Origin: Calliopum simillimum
Lineage: Eukaryota; Arthropoda; Insecta; Diptera; Lauxaniidae
Assembly (NCBI GenBank): GCA_951812925.1
Contig: OX638370.1
Location: 108,514,897 to 108,578,896, forward strand
Direction: 5' to 3'
DNA length: 64,000 nucleotides
Shown here: piece by piece, positions 23,975-33,671 of the stretch
How positions within the stretch are numbered: the first letter of the stretch is position 1
How the letters are laid out: each line of letters opens with the position of its first letter
Notes under the pieces: generated by a model
What the model was told of the DNA's origin: nothing
What the model saw: only the letters and a program-made list of their open reading frames with translations
The model's database searches: none
Translations under genes and position numbers: made by a program

Positions 23975-25526
23975 TACAGTTTAGCCTCCAATCGAAATTG
24001 ATTATAAACCAAATATTTTCTTATGTGCTTTTAAAATCTAAGGATAAACATGGAATCTAAAAGTGTCGCTCGGATCTGGTTTCGGAGATATAGACATCGG
24101 AAGTTCGGGATATAGCTTTTCTAAAAATCTATATAAGTTGAAAACGGCTGCATTGATTTCCAAAATATGGGTGTCATATGAAAGGTAATTTAATAAACTA
24201 CAATATTGATTCAGAAATTTTTGAAATCTGGATCGTAGTTTTCGAGATATTACGCATTTTCTGAATTTTAGTCCGATTTAAAAAAAAAAAACGGTTTTTT
24301 TCCAAAAAATCCGTTATTAACCTACAGTTTTATTAACATATTTATAAAGCGTAATTCATCCCCTTCAAAATGATATAAAATTTAAACAAAAATTTTTGAT
24401 ATTAATCCATTATAACCGAAAAAGTTAAAAATCATTTTAATGAATTTTGGGAAGTTTTTGAAATTTTTTTGATATGATGTGTTCTCTTTGACAATATGAA
24501 CATTAAAATGAATTTTAATCGATTATATCTCATAGTATATCGAACACGGGCTTCGCTAGCCACAGTAATTTTACATAAGAGTAGGGGTAAGTGGGCGGCC
24601 TGCGGCCGCAACTCAGGATTTAAAACTCCCAAAAATCTAACACCGGCTTCGCGGCGGCCTTCGGCCGCGGATCAGTCTATAATATATCCAACACCTAGCT
24701 TGCTAGCCACAGTAATTTTACATAAGAGTAGGGGTAGGTGGGCGGCCTGCGGCCGCAACTCAGGATTTAAAACTCCCAAAAATCCAACACCGGCTTCGCG
24801 GCGGCCTTCGGCCGCGGATCAGTCTATAATATATTTAACACCTAGTTTGCTAGCCACAGTAATTTTAAATAAGAGTAGAGGTTTATCAATAAAACGCTTT
24901 TGCTTTATTTTAATTTTTTTATTTATATGTCCAATGGTCCAAATTTGTAAACCAATGCTTGATATAGTATAAATATAAACATTTAAAATATGTTTTAATG
25001 CTCATATTGTCAAAGAGAACATATCATATCAAAAAAATGTAAAATACTTCTCAAAATTCATCAAAATGATTTTTAATTTTTTCGGTTATAAGGGGTTAAT
25101 ATCAAAAATTTTTATTAAAATGTTATATCATTTTAAAGGAGATGAATTGAGCTTTATATATATGTTAATAAAATTGTACAGTAATAACGGATTTTTTGGA
25201 GAAATAACGATTTTTTTTTAAAAAATCAGTCCAAATTTCAGAAAAGTCGTAATATCTCGAAAACTACGAGCCAGATTCCGAAAATTTCTGAACCAATATT
25301 GTAGCTTATTAAATTACCTTTCATATGACACCCATATTTTGGAAATCAATGCAGCCGTTTTCAACTTATATAGATTTTTAGAAAGCTATATCCCGAACTT
25401 CCGATGTCTATATCTCCAAAACCAGATCCGAGCGACACTTTTAGATTCCATATTTATCCTTAGATTTTAAAAGCACATAAGAAAATATTTGGTTTATAAT
25501 TAATTTCGATTGGAGGCTAAACTGTA
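23975..25526. repeat. 1.55-kb foldback element with GC-rich centre
   Basis: Arms of about 535 bp (23975-24510 and 24991-25526) are imperfect inverted copies; for example, AGTTTAGCCTCCAATCG is at the outer left and its inverse at the outer right. The central 480 bp holds the GC-rich 147-bp modules described separately. A solo relative of one arm segment (GTGTMGCTCGGATCTRGTTTC...GATATAGCTTTT) lies at about 46700-46880. No transposase is present. Confidence 0.8.
24545..24875. repeat. 147-bp tandem GC-rich modules (2.2 copies)
   Basis: CACAGTAATTTTACATAAGA recurs at 24561, 24708 and, partly, 24855, an exact 147-bp spacing. Each full unit carries two short perfect hairpins (GCGGCCTGCGGCCGC and GCGGCCTTCGGCCGC). 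Because 147 is divisible by three, a 158-codon frame runs through the repeats with the peptide phrase [16 protein letters not shown] repeated; I read this as a by-product. Base composition is very unlike the AT-rich surroundings. A further unit is at 26000-26120. Confidence 0.8.
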
Positions 25527-25797: not shown

Positions 25798-27231
25798 ATG
25801 GTTTGCTGCCTTTGCCTGGAAGATGTAAAGGGTGTCATAAACATATTTGCCGAAAAAGGAAAACGTTTCGATATTGCACGGATATTAGGAAAATACTTTT
25901 GGTTTGAAGTAGGGTAAAAAAAATAACTCCTCTCTCTGTCTCAATTTACTCAATTAGCGTACGCGAAATCCAGTGAAGTTTTTTCCCCCTGGACGCATCT
26001 TCGTTACAACAGTAATTTTACATAAAAGTAGGGGTAAGTGGGCGGCCTGTGGCCGCAGCTCAGGATTTAAACCCGTCAGACATCCAACACCGGCTTCGCG
26101 GCGGCCTTCGGCCGCGGATAATTACATAAATTTATGTAATTATCCGCGGGGAAAAAACTTCACTGGATTTCGGGCACGCTAATTGAGTTTCGCGTACGCT
26201 AATTGAGTAAATTGAGAGAGGAGTTTTCGCGTACGCGGGTCGCCCCGTATAGACATTTCCAAAAAAATATCACCTACGATCTTTGTCTATAATATGTATT
26301 TGTATATTTTATAGCCAACTATGGAAGATCCCATATCCACTTTCATCTGCTATGATTGTTTGCATAAGCTGATGGAGTTTCATCAATTCTATCTTAAAGT
26401 TCAGCAAGCTCATTGCCAATATTCACAACAACACGTCCCCGACACGACTATGGAAAAAGAACTCAGTAGTGAAGAAAAACCAGAGAAACCAAAAAAGACA
26501 TTGGATTATTTTTGGCACGAAAATGTGTTAAGTTATGTTGACGATGAAGGGAAATCCAAAACGGGAGGCAACTCAATCCCTTTCGAAAATATAGAAATAG
26601 AAGTTTGCGAATCTCAGCAACATGAAAATGAAACTACTGACACATTATCAAGAAGTCAAGAAGCCGAAGATAATCCAGAATCAGATGAGGCTGTCAACGA
26701 CAGCGAGAACTGTACGCGCTTGTTATGTCCACATCCAAATTGTGATCGTTGGCTGAAGGACGAAAATAATTTGAAAACACACATAAGACAGCAACATTCT
26801 AATGAAAACAAATATAAGTCATATATTTGCTATATTTGTGATCGGTTTTGCAAAAATCGAAATTCCTACACAAATCACGTAAGATATGCACATAGCAATA
26901 AAACCTTTACATGTGAAGAATGCAATAAAACTTTTAAAAAGGCCATCACTTTACGGGTTAGTTATTGATATTTAAGTTGAACTAATTTGTTATTTCTTAC
27001 TTTAAATGCATACATATTTCTTTTTAGGAACATATGGCTCGACATACTGGTATTAAACTTTACAAATGCCCGTTTTGTACTCGAACTTTTAATTCAAATG
27101 CGAACATGCATTCACATAAGAAAAAAAAGCATCCCGAGGAATGGGATATTTGGCGTAAAACAAAACAAGAAAGTTCTCAGAAATTAATTAAGTCAGAGCT
27201 TGACGGAACAAATCAAGATTCACATGATTAG
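25798..27231 (+). CDS. ZAD-C2H2 zinc-finger protein 3, internally shortened
   Basis: Three exons: 25798-25908, 26315-26956, 27028-27231, giving 318 residues with frames in register. The ZAD starts MVCCLC with ligands C3, C6, C49 and C52, followed by an acidic linker to about residue 170. The linker runs straight into the second half of the usual finger array ([66 protein letters not shown]). The basic linker exon, the exon with fingers 3-5 and half of the 376-nt exon are missing compared with paralogues, so only about four fingers remain. The frame is preserved, so a short functional protein is plausible. Intron 1 contains a GC-rich inverted-repeat insertion. Confidence 0.85.
25927..26222. 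mobile_element. inverted-repeat insertion with GC-rich module in ZAD gene 3 intron 1
   Basis: The left end (CTCAATTAGCGTACGCG, then AATCCAGTGAAGTTTTTTCC) is mirrored at the right end, where the CTCAATTAGCGTRCSCG block is present twice. Between them lies one copy of the GC-rich module also found at 24545-24875, with GCGGCCTTCGGCCGC and an adjoining perfect hairpin GATAATTACATAAATTTATG... at 26117. Non-coding. Confidence 0.75.
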
Positions 27232-27498
27232 AACCTGACATGAAAATAAAGGTTTGAGCTGCACATTACAAATAGAGTTACCAGCGTTAGCCGATCAAGT
27301 AGCCATGATGAACAGTATGCGGCTGCCTACTCCAATGGCAAATAATTTCCTTCATTTTCTGTTTAAGCTAAGAGCTAAATATTCAATTACAGTATTAACC
27401 CTTTCAGACCCAGATACACGATTGTGTTATCTGAATTTTCCAGAGTTAAACCATTTTTATTTATTACAATAAAATCGGTCAAGTACATACATTTTTCG
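27232..27498. other. 267 bp between ZAD gene 3 and the Fanzor 3' end
   Basis: No frame and no inverted terminal repeat is evident. In TnpB and Fanzor loci the guide RNA derives from the region overlapping and following the nuclease 3' end. On the minus strand that would be this interval, so it is the place to look for an omega-like RNA. No such structure can be confirmed by eye. Confidence 0.3.
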
Positions 27499-29160
27499 CT
27501 ATACCAAAAATAGTAGTACTTTTACAAAAATTTTAATTTTTTTGATACAGGCAATAATACATTGGCCCAAGTACAATATATTAGCACCAGCATTAACATC
27601 ACGATTCCAACAAGTATTGCAATTTGGACAAAATTGATACCTGTGTGGTGATCGTGATGTTTTATTTTCAAAATAACAATTTGCACATAGCTTAGTGGTT
27701 CTATATTCATTAACTAACATAACGTCGACATTTTTATGTTCTCGCAATGCCCGTACAAATTTCCGATGTGGTGTCCGTATATAGCCGCGCACTGGTGACC
27801 CTGATGAGATTTCACTTGAGCCGATACAAATTAGAGTCGATCCATTATTACCAGGTTCAACAAGTTCTTTAGCCAGCTTATGACAAGTCTTCTCTACACA
27901 AATGTATTTTTGTAATTTTAATCTGGTTACTTTACGTTGACTGAAAATCATTTGTTTTTCAAGAAATATCTCCAATTCGTATTGCGTATAGTTCTCCAGA
28001 TCCCCAATTGAATTGGCCGAATATTTTGTATTTTCTGGGCACATTGAAGTGAATCTTTTTAATTTACATTTGCGCGAATAGAATCCGCTCATATGATGAT
28101 ATGTAGAATTTTTCAATTTAATTGGCTTTCCATTACGAACTCCACCATATATCAAACGTAATCCCGGATCAAGACCAATTTTGTTGGCATATTCTGTTGA
28201 GCATATTTTCTCCAAATTAATATTTGTATAGTATTCAATTTCTTTGCTTTCGCCTCGAATTGCTGAAGTTCTTTTTCGTTTTACAGAATTCTTTGCAGTA
28301 TTTAACTTTACAATTGAATCGGTCATTTTAAAAGGGGATATGTGACGCTCGGTAGAGAATTATTCTTTTGCTTTTTTGCCACTGTGGCGATGGCACTGGT
28401 TGGTTTATCTATTTTCCAAGTACGCAGATTACTGCTTACTATTATTGTTAGTTAAATCCCATCACTAAAAACGCACTAAAATAAGGTTTACCAAACTTAT
28501 GAGGGTTTTTCTTAAATTTGCCATAAGATTTAATTTCGTCACATATCCCCTTTTAAAAATGACAGATTTAATTGGTTTTCGCATTAGAAACGATACAGCT
28601 ACACCGTCAGTCTGTAAGGAATAATCAAATTGAAATATTTTTGCCAATATTCTGCACGATCGAAAGTTTTCCATGGACCCCTGTACAACTTTAACGAACA
28701 CAACAGCGAATGGAAGGCAAACGAATCATAGCGAATATGATGTGCTCCGTGTTTGAATCATTGAGAAATTGCGATAATTGTTTCTTTCGTTGAATCTTTG
28801 TAGATTGAAAAATAGTTTAATGCCTGTTGACCAATATAGTTTTTTATTTTTCAAGTTGGATAACTTTTCACCATTCCATTGTAATTCGTCGATCAAATGA
28901 ATCAATAGATCAAAATCTGGCTCTTTGTTTTTATTGTCATCTTGGTCGCAGAATAAATAGTTTAATGTATTGTAGATTTTTGTATTTATTATCTTCAGTG
29001 AATTTCTTGAAAAACCTTCGTAGTCTACTATACGCATGCATCCATATGTGGAACAGTCCTTGAAAATTCCCAATCCATCCAAGGTACAATATACGTGCAC
29101 AAATTCGATGTGGTTCACAATCTGAACTTGTTTTTTTTTATTTGTTATCGCTGCAACCAG
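27499..29160 (-). CDS. Fanzor: eukaryotic TnpB-like RuvC nuclease, probably decayed
   Basis: One minus-strand frame covers the protein. It is open from 29166 and runs to a TGA at 28726-28728. The same frame continues through QTDGVAVSFLMRKPIKSV, is interrupted by a 217-bp insertion, and resumes as an intact 275-codon C-terminal frame (28326-27499). That part holds the RuvC-I aspartate in GLDPGLR (D53 of the frame), ICIGSSEISSGSPVRG, then NEYRTTKLCANC, CPNC and NRDVNAGANI. This fits the Fanzor signature of Asp, then T/S-T/S-x-x-C4 zinc ribbon, then RD; E207 of NEYRTTK would be the alternative RuvC glutamate. The first in-frame ATG is at 29037, but coding similarity extends upstream of it. Fanzors are RNA-guided DNA nucleases of eukaryotic transposons. 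It lies head-to-head with ZAD gene 4. Whether it is still expressed is unknown. Confidence 0.85.
28334..28550. mobile_element. 217-bp TIR element inside the Fanzor frame
   Basis: The ends are perfect 14-bp inverted repeats (GGGGATATGTGACG), flanked on both sides by TTTTAAAA (28326-28333 and 28551-28558). Element plus one 8-bp flank is 225 bp, exactly 75 codons. The reading frame before and after is the same, so removing it rejoins the Fanzor frame. Weaker inverted similarity continues about 15 bp beyond the flanks. On the minus strand the segment also begins near a GT and ends near an AG, so removal by splicing is possible. It could be a MITE or a recently acquired intron. Confidence 0.65.
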
Positions 29161-29281
29161 GGTAATTCAACCATGGCAGCAACCTATTTTTGTTGCCAAA
29201 ACTGACAGTTGGATTGTTTTTGACAGATGTAATATCTTTGACACTTACATTGCATTTTGTTATTTTCTGTGTTCAAGGAAA

Positions 29282-31274
29282 ATGAATTGCCGAGTTTGTC
29301 TTGAAGATTCCTATAGTGTTTTAAATATATTTGACGAAAATGGAAAACTTCACAACATAGCAAGCATACTAAGGAAACATCTATGGTTTGAGGTAAAGAT
29401 AAATGGTCATTCTTAACTTAGCTCATTATCAATAAATATTTAGCCTTTCCCTGAAGATTCCATATCGACAGCTGTGTGTTGCAGTTGTTGGCAAAGTGTT
29501 AATGATTTTCATCAGTTCTATGTTAAAGTGGAGCAAGCTCATATTGCATTATCAAGAGCTAATATAACCACAATTCCTGAAATTGAAATTGATAGTGATT
29601 TCTTGGTCGGCCCAGAAGCAACCGATACGATTGATGTTAAGGAAGAGTTGATGGAAACAGTTCCAGAAAATTTGAATCATGAAGGTGATAGAGTAGAAGC
29701 GTTAGAAACAAAAGTTGAAATTAATCCATTAGATTTTATTGACACAAACTGTGCAAAAGAAGATGATACACATTTGATGAAATTAAGTACTACTTCAGGT
29801 ATGTACTGACATTAAAGGTATATATGCTATATATGTATACATTTTAATACTTTATGCATTTTGATGTTCCTGAAGGAAAGCGAATACTGCGAAAAAAGCC
29901 ATCAACACGTTTCACATCATTAGCCATTTTAGATGAAAAGCCACTTAAACGTCGCAAACTGGCGAGAAATAAAACTACATTTAACGACGACATTGAGGAA
30001 CCAAAAAGATTAAAGCAAAATGAACAAGCAGTAACAAAACGTCAGCAGAGTATCACGGAGCGCGAATTAAATCTGATTGCCAAGCATATTCCTATGCAAT
30101 GTGAACTGTGCTACTTTATAACTAAAAAGTACAATGATTTTGTGGATCATTTCAGACAGGAACATGAAGGAGTGAAACCGAACGTCAAGTGCTGCGGTCG
30201 CAGATTAAATAGGCGTTTTTTATTTATACAACATGCGCTTAAACATGAAGATCCTGAACATTTTAAGTAAGTTTTCTATTTTGGGCCAGGATACAATTCA
30301 ACAAAATATATGTTTGTATTGTTCTTATTAAATACACTGTGTTATCTGGTGTGTTGAATTCATCTCCTAGTAATTAAATTAAAAAACCAATTACTATTTT
30401 TTTGTCGTAAGGTGTAACGAGTGCAAAAAAGTTTTCAATGTATCTGATAGTTTGCATTCTCACATGCTTGAAAATCATGCGCCCAAAGAGAAGCTCAAAT
30501 ATGCTTGTGATGCTTGTCCAAAACGATTTTCAAAACAGCATTATCTCAACCTTCATAAAACAACTCATATACCGCCAGATGAATGGAAATATTTCTGTGA
30601 AATTTGTCCACAGCCTAAATAGTAAGAACTTTTTAATATTTGATTGTAACAAACTTTTCTGTAACTTTATTTTTTTTTTAATATTTCCAGTTTTGCCAGC
30701 AATAATTTGCTGCAAGTGCATCGAAATTATTGTCATTTGAAAGCAGCAAACGTATGCCACGTTTGTGCGAAAGAAATACGCGATAATGCGTGTTTTGAAA
30801 AACATGTTCGAACTCATTTTGAAGATAATAGTCCGCGTGTAAAGTGTCCCCATCCAGGTTGTGATAGATATCTTAAAGATAAAGATAATTTAAGAATACA
30901 TATGAGACGTCACAAAGAAGAAGGTCAACAATTTGCCTGTAAAAGTTGTAATAAACTGTGCAAAAGTCGTAATGCCTTAACGAGTCACTTTCACTATGTG
31001 CATAATAATAAATCTTACAGTTGTGATCTTTGCAAGAAATCGTTCAAAAAAGCCATAACACTAAAGGTTCGACATTTTGGTTTTAAATTTAAGAAGTTTA
31101 ATTCAATGCTGATATATTATTTTGCAGGAGCATATGGTTCAACATACTGGAGGTGTGCTATACCAATGTCCATTTTGTACGCGAACTTTTAATTCGAATG
31201 CAAATATGCACTCACACAAGAAAAAGATGCATCCTGTTGAGTGGGAAAGTACGCATAGATTAAAAAATAAGTAG
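29282..31274 (+). CDS. ZAD-C2H2 zinc-finger protein 4
   Basis: Six exons: 29282-29392, 29444-29798, 29876-30266, 30412-30621, 30691-31066, 31128-31274, giving 529 residues with phases verified. The ZAD starts MNCRVC with ligands C3, C6, C49 and C52. An acidic linker follows ([19 protein letters not shown]), then a basic stretch (KRRKLARNK) and about ten C2H2 fingers with the family landmarks [58 protein letters not shown] and [16 protein letters not shown]. The start codon is 164 bp from the Fanzor frame on the other strand, suggesting a shared promoter. It is closest to gene 5, with which it shares its upstream sequence. It is probably a nuclear DNA-binding protein. Confidence 0.92.
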
Positions 31275-33163: not shown

Positions 33164-33671
33164 AAATCAAAAATATTTTTTTTATCATAAAAATTAAATA
33201 AAGCAAATCCGTTTTGAGTTCGTATTTGAAGTATTTACGGAATCGAAACGGATTTGCCCAGGTTCGAATCCTACCAGAGGTGGATTTTTACCCTTTATTT
33301 TTCTTCCTTTTTTTCTTTTTATTATTTTTTAATTGCTAATAGGCTCATCAAAACGGTTTTTTTCTGTAAATATACAGCATTAACATATTTAAAAGCAAAT
33401 CCGTTTTGAATTCGTTTTAACATAAGTTTCGGATTCGAAACGGGCCCGCACTGCGGAATTTAATTTTTTTTTATTCGCTAATAAGCGCTTTAAAATGTTT
33501 TTTTTTTCTATCTAAACAAAGCGTTTTGAATTCGTTTTTGATGTACGTTACGGGTTCGAAATGGATGCGTTACCGCGGATTACGTTTTTTATACCTTTAT
33601 GAACTCGAAATGGATTCGAAACGGATCCTCATCCGTTTTTGTGCACATTGGGTAATCTTTATATACATACA

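Follow-up and report, generated by a model that had tools for sequence, protein, structure and literature searches.

The Fanzor gene described here lies on the minus strand (27399-29049) of a 64,000-nucleotide stretch of DNA from the fly Calliopum simillimum, referred to as the window, and is almost certainly a decayed, 5′-truncated copy of a Fanzor1-type transposon of the kind that has 13-bp inverted repeats and a TTAN target site. This feature as such is an ordinary dead copy. The interesting part is the surrounding family, because its two classes of insertions allow one to test whether Fanzor takes part in allelic copying: intact copies have a duplication of TTAN only, and truncated ones, where the duplication is still readable, of TTAN plus 7-12 nt. 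Taken as a whole, a dead Fanzor transposon copy together with Fanzor cutting and one-sided repair is probably the right explanation of the family. Its cleavage-and-repair part, which draws on genomic scars, is plausible, with about as much to be said for it as against it. Somewhat more tentative still is the specific suggestion that the duplications of 11-16 nt are scars of cuts made in vivo by an animal Fanzor that homes, guided by RNA, onto its own empty allele and leaves the break to one-sided repair.

A blastn comparison with a full-length copy of the same family (L032, family A) aligned window positions 27399-28316 with element positions 3498-2579 (98% identity), and 28570-28631 and 28630-29049 with element positions 2583-2522 and 2489-2066, respectively (95-96%); the 3′ end is thus intact and the 5′ end is lost. 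Similarity to the family begins at 29049, and the first ~37 codons of the gene that the preliminary description had started at 29160 are not element sequence. The RuvC and zinc-ribbon half of the nuclease is still an open frame of 286 residues (27502-28359, minus strand) with GLDPG (D64), NEYRTT (E218, T221), CxxC-x15-CxxC and NRD (D254); its ~14 initial residues derive from an insert and its C-terminal tail is frame-shifted and unlike that of the family. These signatures, together with TDGVAVSF, had been claimed for the minus strand and all were found. The spacing of 157 residues between Asp and TT proved to be that between D64 and T221. The frame matches the Fanzor fingerprint DPGx(120-160)Ex6CxxCx(12-18)CxxCx(4-8)D (PMC10711439) over residues 64-254. 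The profile search suggested at the outset gave a match to Pfam PF07282 (Cas12f1-like_TNB) with an E value of 3.9e-9, better than the cut-off of that profile, and PDB chain 9b0l_P, a mimivirus Fanzor2, matched with an E value of 4.8e-4. In a whole-fold comparison, the best match of the protein model was SpuFz (model residues 41-281), with Cas12f and TnpB nearly as good. Fingerprint, profile and fold support the identification as Fanzor; the type of element and SpuFz as top fold match suggest its placement in Fanzor1.

The signatures do not, as had been assumed, lie in one open frame. TDGVAVSF is found in a separate open piece (28465-28725), in the same frame as the RuvC half but separated from it by a MITE-like insert of ~250 bp (28317-28569, no strand assigned), which has an apparent 4-5 bp duplication, (C)AATT, and arms that are 22-bp perfect inverted repeats (28326-28347 and 28537-28558); a scan of the 64-kb window for a second copy of the insert arm returned only the copy at 28317-28569. 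The N-terminal remains, that is the TDGVAVSF piece and what lies upstream of it (28570-29049, minus strand), have a deletion of ~32 bp and smaller indels relative to L032, and indels shift the reading frame of the gene. Altogether, 27499-29160 contains six internal in-frame stops, five of them inside the insert. The gene stands between host genes: a ZAD/C2H2 zinc-finger gene, of which a part lies at 26315-26968 (plus strand; matches to Pfam zf-C2H2_jaz with an E value of 8.6e-12 and to zf-AD with 1.5e-5, the latter short of the cut-off), and the start of the next ZAD zinc-finger gene in two open pieces at 29126-29809 (plus strand; matches to zf-AD with E values of 4.7e-4 and 1.4e-5, neither of which reaches the curated cut-off). 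The zinc-finger neighbours reported earlier are therefore real, as the C2H2 matches are above their cut-off and those to zf-AD (E 4.7e-4 to 1.4e-5) slightly below it. Also on the plus strand, 24478-24972 is a 164-residue open frame that contains near-identical repeats.

An open frame of 286 residues that has the fingerprint residues and sits near host genes could be taken for a co-opted host gene, as had been considered, but the six stops over the claimed span, the insert and the deletions speak against this, and so does the substitution pattern. Relative to L032, the window copy has 3 synonymous and 11 non-synonymous changes over 258 codons (dS 0.018, dN 0.018); with dN equal to dS the copy is drifting, and constraint is not evident, though the comparison has only 14 changes. 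Seven other family-A copies gave dN values of 0.002-0.013 and dS values of 0-0.035. Families A and B, on the other hand, differ by a dN of 0.20 and a dS of 2.27 over 507 codons, the latter near saturation, which indicates that the nuclease itself was maintained by selection. Co-option of the window gene, rejected on account of the stops, the insert and the absent sign of constraint, is accordingly the least probable of all readings. The other early suggestion, that the gene may be stranded, describes it well: it is a dead copy that has lost one end.

The same genome (690 Mb in 334 contigs, five of them larger than 100 Mb) holds many Fanzor copies with an open nuclease frame. The window frame has at least 139 matches (best 136 of 209 candidates scored) that fall into several families, among them copies with both ends, which overturns the impression that carriage by a transposon was not obvious here. 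Identity to the window copy is ~90-95% in family A, 68-69% in family B, which has at least 33 copies, and 54-57% in a more distant set, family C. A tree of 23 proteins places the window copy with family A (support 100/99). Open frames of 526-529 residues are present in 30 of the 33 family-B copies, one of which has a stop within the match. The fingerprint is found in a single open frame at 32 of 41 loci; the nine that fail are five family-A and four family-C copies. DPG and EFRTT are present in the family-C proteins, yet these do not match the fingerprint. The model of a family-B protein has a mean pLDDT of 63.5 with a poor N-terminal half. Outside this genome, two relatives from the midge Diamesa hyperborea (P0018 and P0021) are 35-36% identical to a family-C protein, and a search among viral contigs gave one weak locus only (37% over query residues 429-499). 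For animals, Bao and Jurka 2013 (PMC3627910) reported Fanzors from Hessian fly and Hydra only, and arthropods are among the Fanzor hosts in PMC10432273.

Some features of the distribution were noted in passing. Family-A copies crowd C4:112-118 Mb, the last megabases of the 119.5-Mb contig C4, where they are sometimes arranged head to head (L004/L015), and L031 bears an additional 3′ end in inverted orientation. Within the family-A leader, 120 bp (probe positions 642-763 of L032:3094-4093) correspond to a dispersed repeat that occurs with 92-93% identity in at least 27 places. Some family-B copies, namely L041, L055 (C1:2029018) and L063 (C1:160433112), have a common extra leader block of ~300 bp, which in L041 has a GTCAC at either side and looks like an insert that was amplified together with the element. 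Upstream of the family-C Fanzor of L046 is a 757-residue frame (168-2438 in gene orientation) with C2H2-like fingers, as judged by eye; again a Fanzor near a zinc-finger gene.

The elements of families A and B end in GGGTCTGAAAGGG, and their 13-bp 5′ repeat is CCCTTTCAGACCC. In the window, the terminal inverted repeat of the 3′ end, GGGTCTGAAAGGG, of which CCCTTTCAGACCC is the reverse complement, is at 27399-27411 on the minus strand and is the common family-A end; it is followed by TTAA (27395-27398, minus strand), which corresponds to the TTAN target site. The absence of obvious transposon ends noted before therefore holds for the 5′ end, which is missing, and not for the 3′ end, the only repeat that the window copy retains. 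At 27 of 30 family-A loci the 3′ end agrees with GGGTCTGAAAGGG within three mismatches and is then followed by TTA. The search for intact copies and their terminal repeats that had been proposed was successful: in six intact copies each end has its inverted repeat and the target duplication is the 4-bp TTAN, namely TTAT in L032 and L033 (family A) and in L042, L057/58 and L059/60 (family B) and TTAA in L061/62 (family B); the 5′ repeat is slightly variant in L042 and L057. Full-length elements are 3498 bp in family A (L032) and ~2154 bp in family B (L042), and the Fanzor exon is the sole frame of more than 150 residues in L032. In family C, a motif resembling the terminal repeat occurs in L046 and L047, upstream and not downstream of the frame, and none was seen in L044 and L045.

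The two ends behave very differently. The copies have their 3′ end at exactly the same base and differ in the 5′ end: among the 30 copies with a readable 5′ junction, 24 keep the exact 3′ end but have lost 5′ sequence and six are intact. A 180-bp probe from the family-A 3′ end had at least 40 matches (best 40 of 106 candidates), all of which reach the terminal base. With a 1-kb probe from the family-A 5′ end, five matches begin in the first 15 nt (best 40 of 853 candidates scored), and 27 of the 42 matches listed are to the dispersed leader repeat of ~120 bp. The junction count covers loci with an exact 3′ end and a 5′ junction within the extracted stretch; left out were L009, L014, L015, L022 and L027 (5′ end outside the stretch), L011 (interrupted, with its 5′ part further up), L013, L018 and L024 (diverged upstream sequence that makes the junction ambiguous), L025, L029 and L030 (no exact 3′ end), L051/52, L053/54 and L055/56 (5′ junction beyond the stretch), and four family-C loci. 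L040, which lost only the outermost bases of its 5′ repeat, was scored as truncated.

At 11 of 36 loci the right flank, read from the first base after GGG, is repeated upstream of the element over at least 11 nt without mismatch, but this length was reached in none of 1260 trials with swapped flanks, six of which reached 10 nt. Because of these six, L036, with a repeat of 10 nt, was scored as being without a duplication. Duplications of 11-16 nt (TTAN plus 7-12 nt) were present in 12 of the 24 truncated and in none of the six intact copies (two-sided p 0.057). The difference is clearest in family B, of which 12 junctions were read among 33 copies: 7/8 truncated copies have a long duplication (maximal lengths 11, 12, 12, 13, 13, 14 and 16 nt) as compared to 0/4 intact ones (Fisher p 0.010). 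The exception, L063/64, is a truncated copy without a repeat, seen over only ~50 nt upstream. In family A the numbers are 5/16 truncated (11, 12, 12, 12 and 12 nt) and 0/2 intact copies. Five family-B junctions were read with the idea already in place: three are intact and have no long duplication, and of two truncated ones one has it and one does not. For the window copy, a duplication of at least 11 nt was not found within 12 kb upstream; the two nearest matches to its flank have two mismatches in 12 nt and are located at 28304, inside the element, and at 33383. That near-identical family-B copies have different duplications depending on whether they are intact or truncated is what opens a role in allelic copying to testing.

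Ordinary decay, in which deletions took the 5′ ends and repeats at the edges arose by chance, would fit the 11 of 16 truncated family-A copies, the window copy included, and the one of eight in family B in which a repeat of at least 11 nt is lacking. Against it are the swapped-flank control, for the copies that have the repeat, and a set of seven family-B copies that are 97.9-100% identical to L042 and of which six are truncated nevertheless. As an explanation of the family it is therefore highly improbable, although it could hold for the window copy itself. The junctions have further features in common. Seven of seven measured direct joins show a microhomology of 2-4 nt (the chance of 2 nt or more is 0.18 per join) and an eighth, in L065, overlaps by 5 nt; four other junctions (L034, L041, L040 and L021) contain filler of 14, 86, 175 and 388 nt, which lies between the target duplication and the truncated element. 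All truncated family-B copies that were read keep the reading frame.

LINE insertions classically show 5′ truncation, long duplications and microhomology at the junction, a pattern shared by the truncated copies. Target-primed reverse transcription, in which a LINE-type machinery would copy the RNA of the element from its 3′ end, thus had to be considered. However, the copies stop exactly at the transposon end on the 3′ side, with no poly(A) or repeat tail, and L043 and L049 begin upstream of a TATA-like box (read by eye). In addition, the sequence between VEVSR and YIHF, which we take for an intron because it has GT-AG ends and the family-C frame is continuous there, is retained in 30 of the 30 distinct family-A and family-B copies in which both splice sites were seen (spliced copies, 0; seven family-A loci are unreadable at this position and were left out), which argues for a DNA template. 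Intron retention and exact 3′ junctions disfavour reverse transcription, and we regard it as improbable.

An RNA that could serve as guide is predicted at the 3′ end of the element. On the minus strand of the window, 27396-27520 is predicted to fold into an omega RNA scaffold of three stems; in the last stem, element bases are paired with GGG and the TTA of the target site. The predicted fold has -36.5 kcal/mol and a z score of -5.1, not equalled by any of 200 shuffled sequences; z scores were -4.6 for L002 and -2.7 for L039 of family B, the latter equalled by 5 of 200 shuffles. Among the 41 pairs in a consensus fold of 14 distinct copies, two are changed on both sides and five are broken in both family-B rows, and support by covariation is therefore thin. 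The Rfam models gave no match in the window at their gathering scores. The predicted guide of the window copy would be the flank below 27395.

Based on these observations, the following course of events is proposed. A transposase would insert intact elements at TTAN. Fanzor, loaded with an RNA that consists of the 3′ end of the element and its flank, would then recognize the empty allele (TTAN, followed by the flank as protospacer) and cut within the protospacer. The right side of the break would match the donor chromosome perfectly and would copy the element inward from its 3′ end, whereas the left side would be handicapped by a non-matching tail, TTAN and several bases. Copying would often stop early, and the new end would then be linked to the left side through a short stretch of matching bases. 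The resulting order would be left flank, TTAN and part of the protospacer, truncated element, TTAN, protospacer and right flank. Cutting and one-sided repair would account for the polarity and for a duplication that starts at TTAN, is bounded in length and in its long form is absent from intact copies, as well as for microhomology, filler and the retained intron. Against this stands that the length of 7-12 nt is not predicted by the model itself. GtFz1, with the TAM TTAAN, cuts after 14-17 nt on the non-target and 14-16 nt on the target strand, and MmeFz2 after 9-14 nt on one strand (PMC10432273). Since the duplications would imply cuts at 7-12 nt, trimming or a cut position different from that of GtFz1 has to be assumed. 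Random stops of copying would also require selection or ascertainment to explain why truncated family-B copies keep their frame, and the copies were indeed found by their C-terminal half. Finally, only five of the 16 truncated family-A copies with a readable junction have a long duplication, and the window copy has none.

One-ended transposition would make Fanzor dispensable: the element's own or a borrowed transposase would use the 3′ end alone and copy the element to a new TTAN site, and the missed 5′ end would result in a longer and variable duplication. This covers the fixed 3′ ends and the many dispersed truncated copies without allelic conversion. However, both ends of the fly element are inverted repeats, not Helitron ends, its duplication is of 4 bp, and we know of no established case of one-ended copying by a cut-and-paste transposase. 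The same process has been put forward in print for a similar pattern in the CRe families of Chlamydomonas, but Helitron-1N1_CRe, which is without Fanzor, has a duplication in only 1 of 200 copies (PMC3627910). One-ended transposition is the most probable of the alternatives but still unlikely. A true Helitron transposing in this way was also considered and was rejected on the six intact copies, which have inverted repeats and the TTAN duplication. A description of such duplications as Fanzor cuts was not found among the papers listed in our searches of an open-licence library, in which most subscription papers are not included.

By analogy to TnpB, Saito et al. proposed that Fanzor could help its transposon to propagate by cutting the sister chromosome (PMC10432273), and in bacteria TnpB is described as a homing-like factor of retention and drive (PMC11870625). 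Bacterial homing by TnpB is alike in that an RNA-guided cut of the empty site is followed by repair from the filled copy; it is prokaryotic and experimental, whereas the fly case is read from genomic scars alone. If cutting and one-sided repair by Fanzor are confirmed, Fanzors would gain a general role in conversion and retention that is independent of the transposase that carried them.

The closest known elements are those with Fanzor1 in insect viruses (SFav-1 of SfAV, HVav-1, PUgv-1, HAgv-1 and HAmn-1; PMC3627910, PMC10711439), which, by their descriptions, likewise encode Fanzor only and have 13-bp inverted repeats and a 4-bp TTAN duplication. Their 3′ RNA, too, is described with a scaffold of three stems in which the duplication is included, as predicted for the fly RNA (PMC10711439); the sequenced RNA of the SfAV Fanzor1 runs ~15 nt beyond the duplication, which is part of its predicted three-stem scaffold (PMC10711439). 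In contrast to the viral elements, those of the fly are present in high copy number in a cellular genome, have in families A and B what seems to be an intron, and include a large 5′-truncated class that bears duplications of 11-16 nt. SpuFz1 of Spizellomyces punctatus differs in sequence (~17% identity) and belongs to an element with 33-bp inverted repeats and TA.

The truncated class has its counterpart in the Fanzor1 Helitrons CRe-1, CRe-2 and CRe-3 of Chlamydomonas (PMC3627910). There, too, many copies are truncated at the 5′ end and retain the 3′ end, so that 3′ ends are over-represented; copies with a full 5′ end are reported without the longer duplication, and most of the others, chiefly the truncated ones, have duplications of 7-19 bp right after the target motif, some with extra sequence. 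These elements differ in their Helitron ends, in the target TTTT and in intact copies described as having no duplication at all, as opposed to the inverted repeats and the TTAN duplication of the fly. Duplications of 11-12 bp and fuzzy 5′ ends are also known from Mucor MCi-2A and MCi-2D (PMC3627910). Bao and Jurka 2013 termed the CRe pattern one-ended transposition and considered it not clear whether Fanzor or the length of the element causes the difference between families (PMC3627910). At that time, Fanzor had not yet been recognized as a guided nuclease. Homing by Fanzor would offer one cause for the observation in Chlamydomonas and, if true, would extend from the fly to the algal CRe and possibly to the fungal MCi-2 Fanzor elements.
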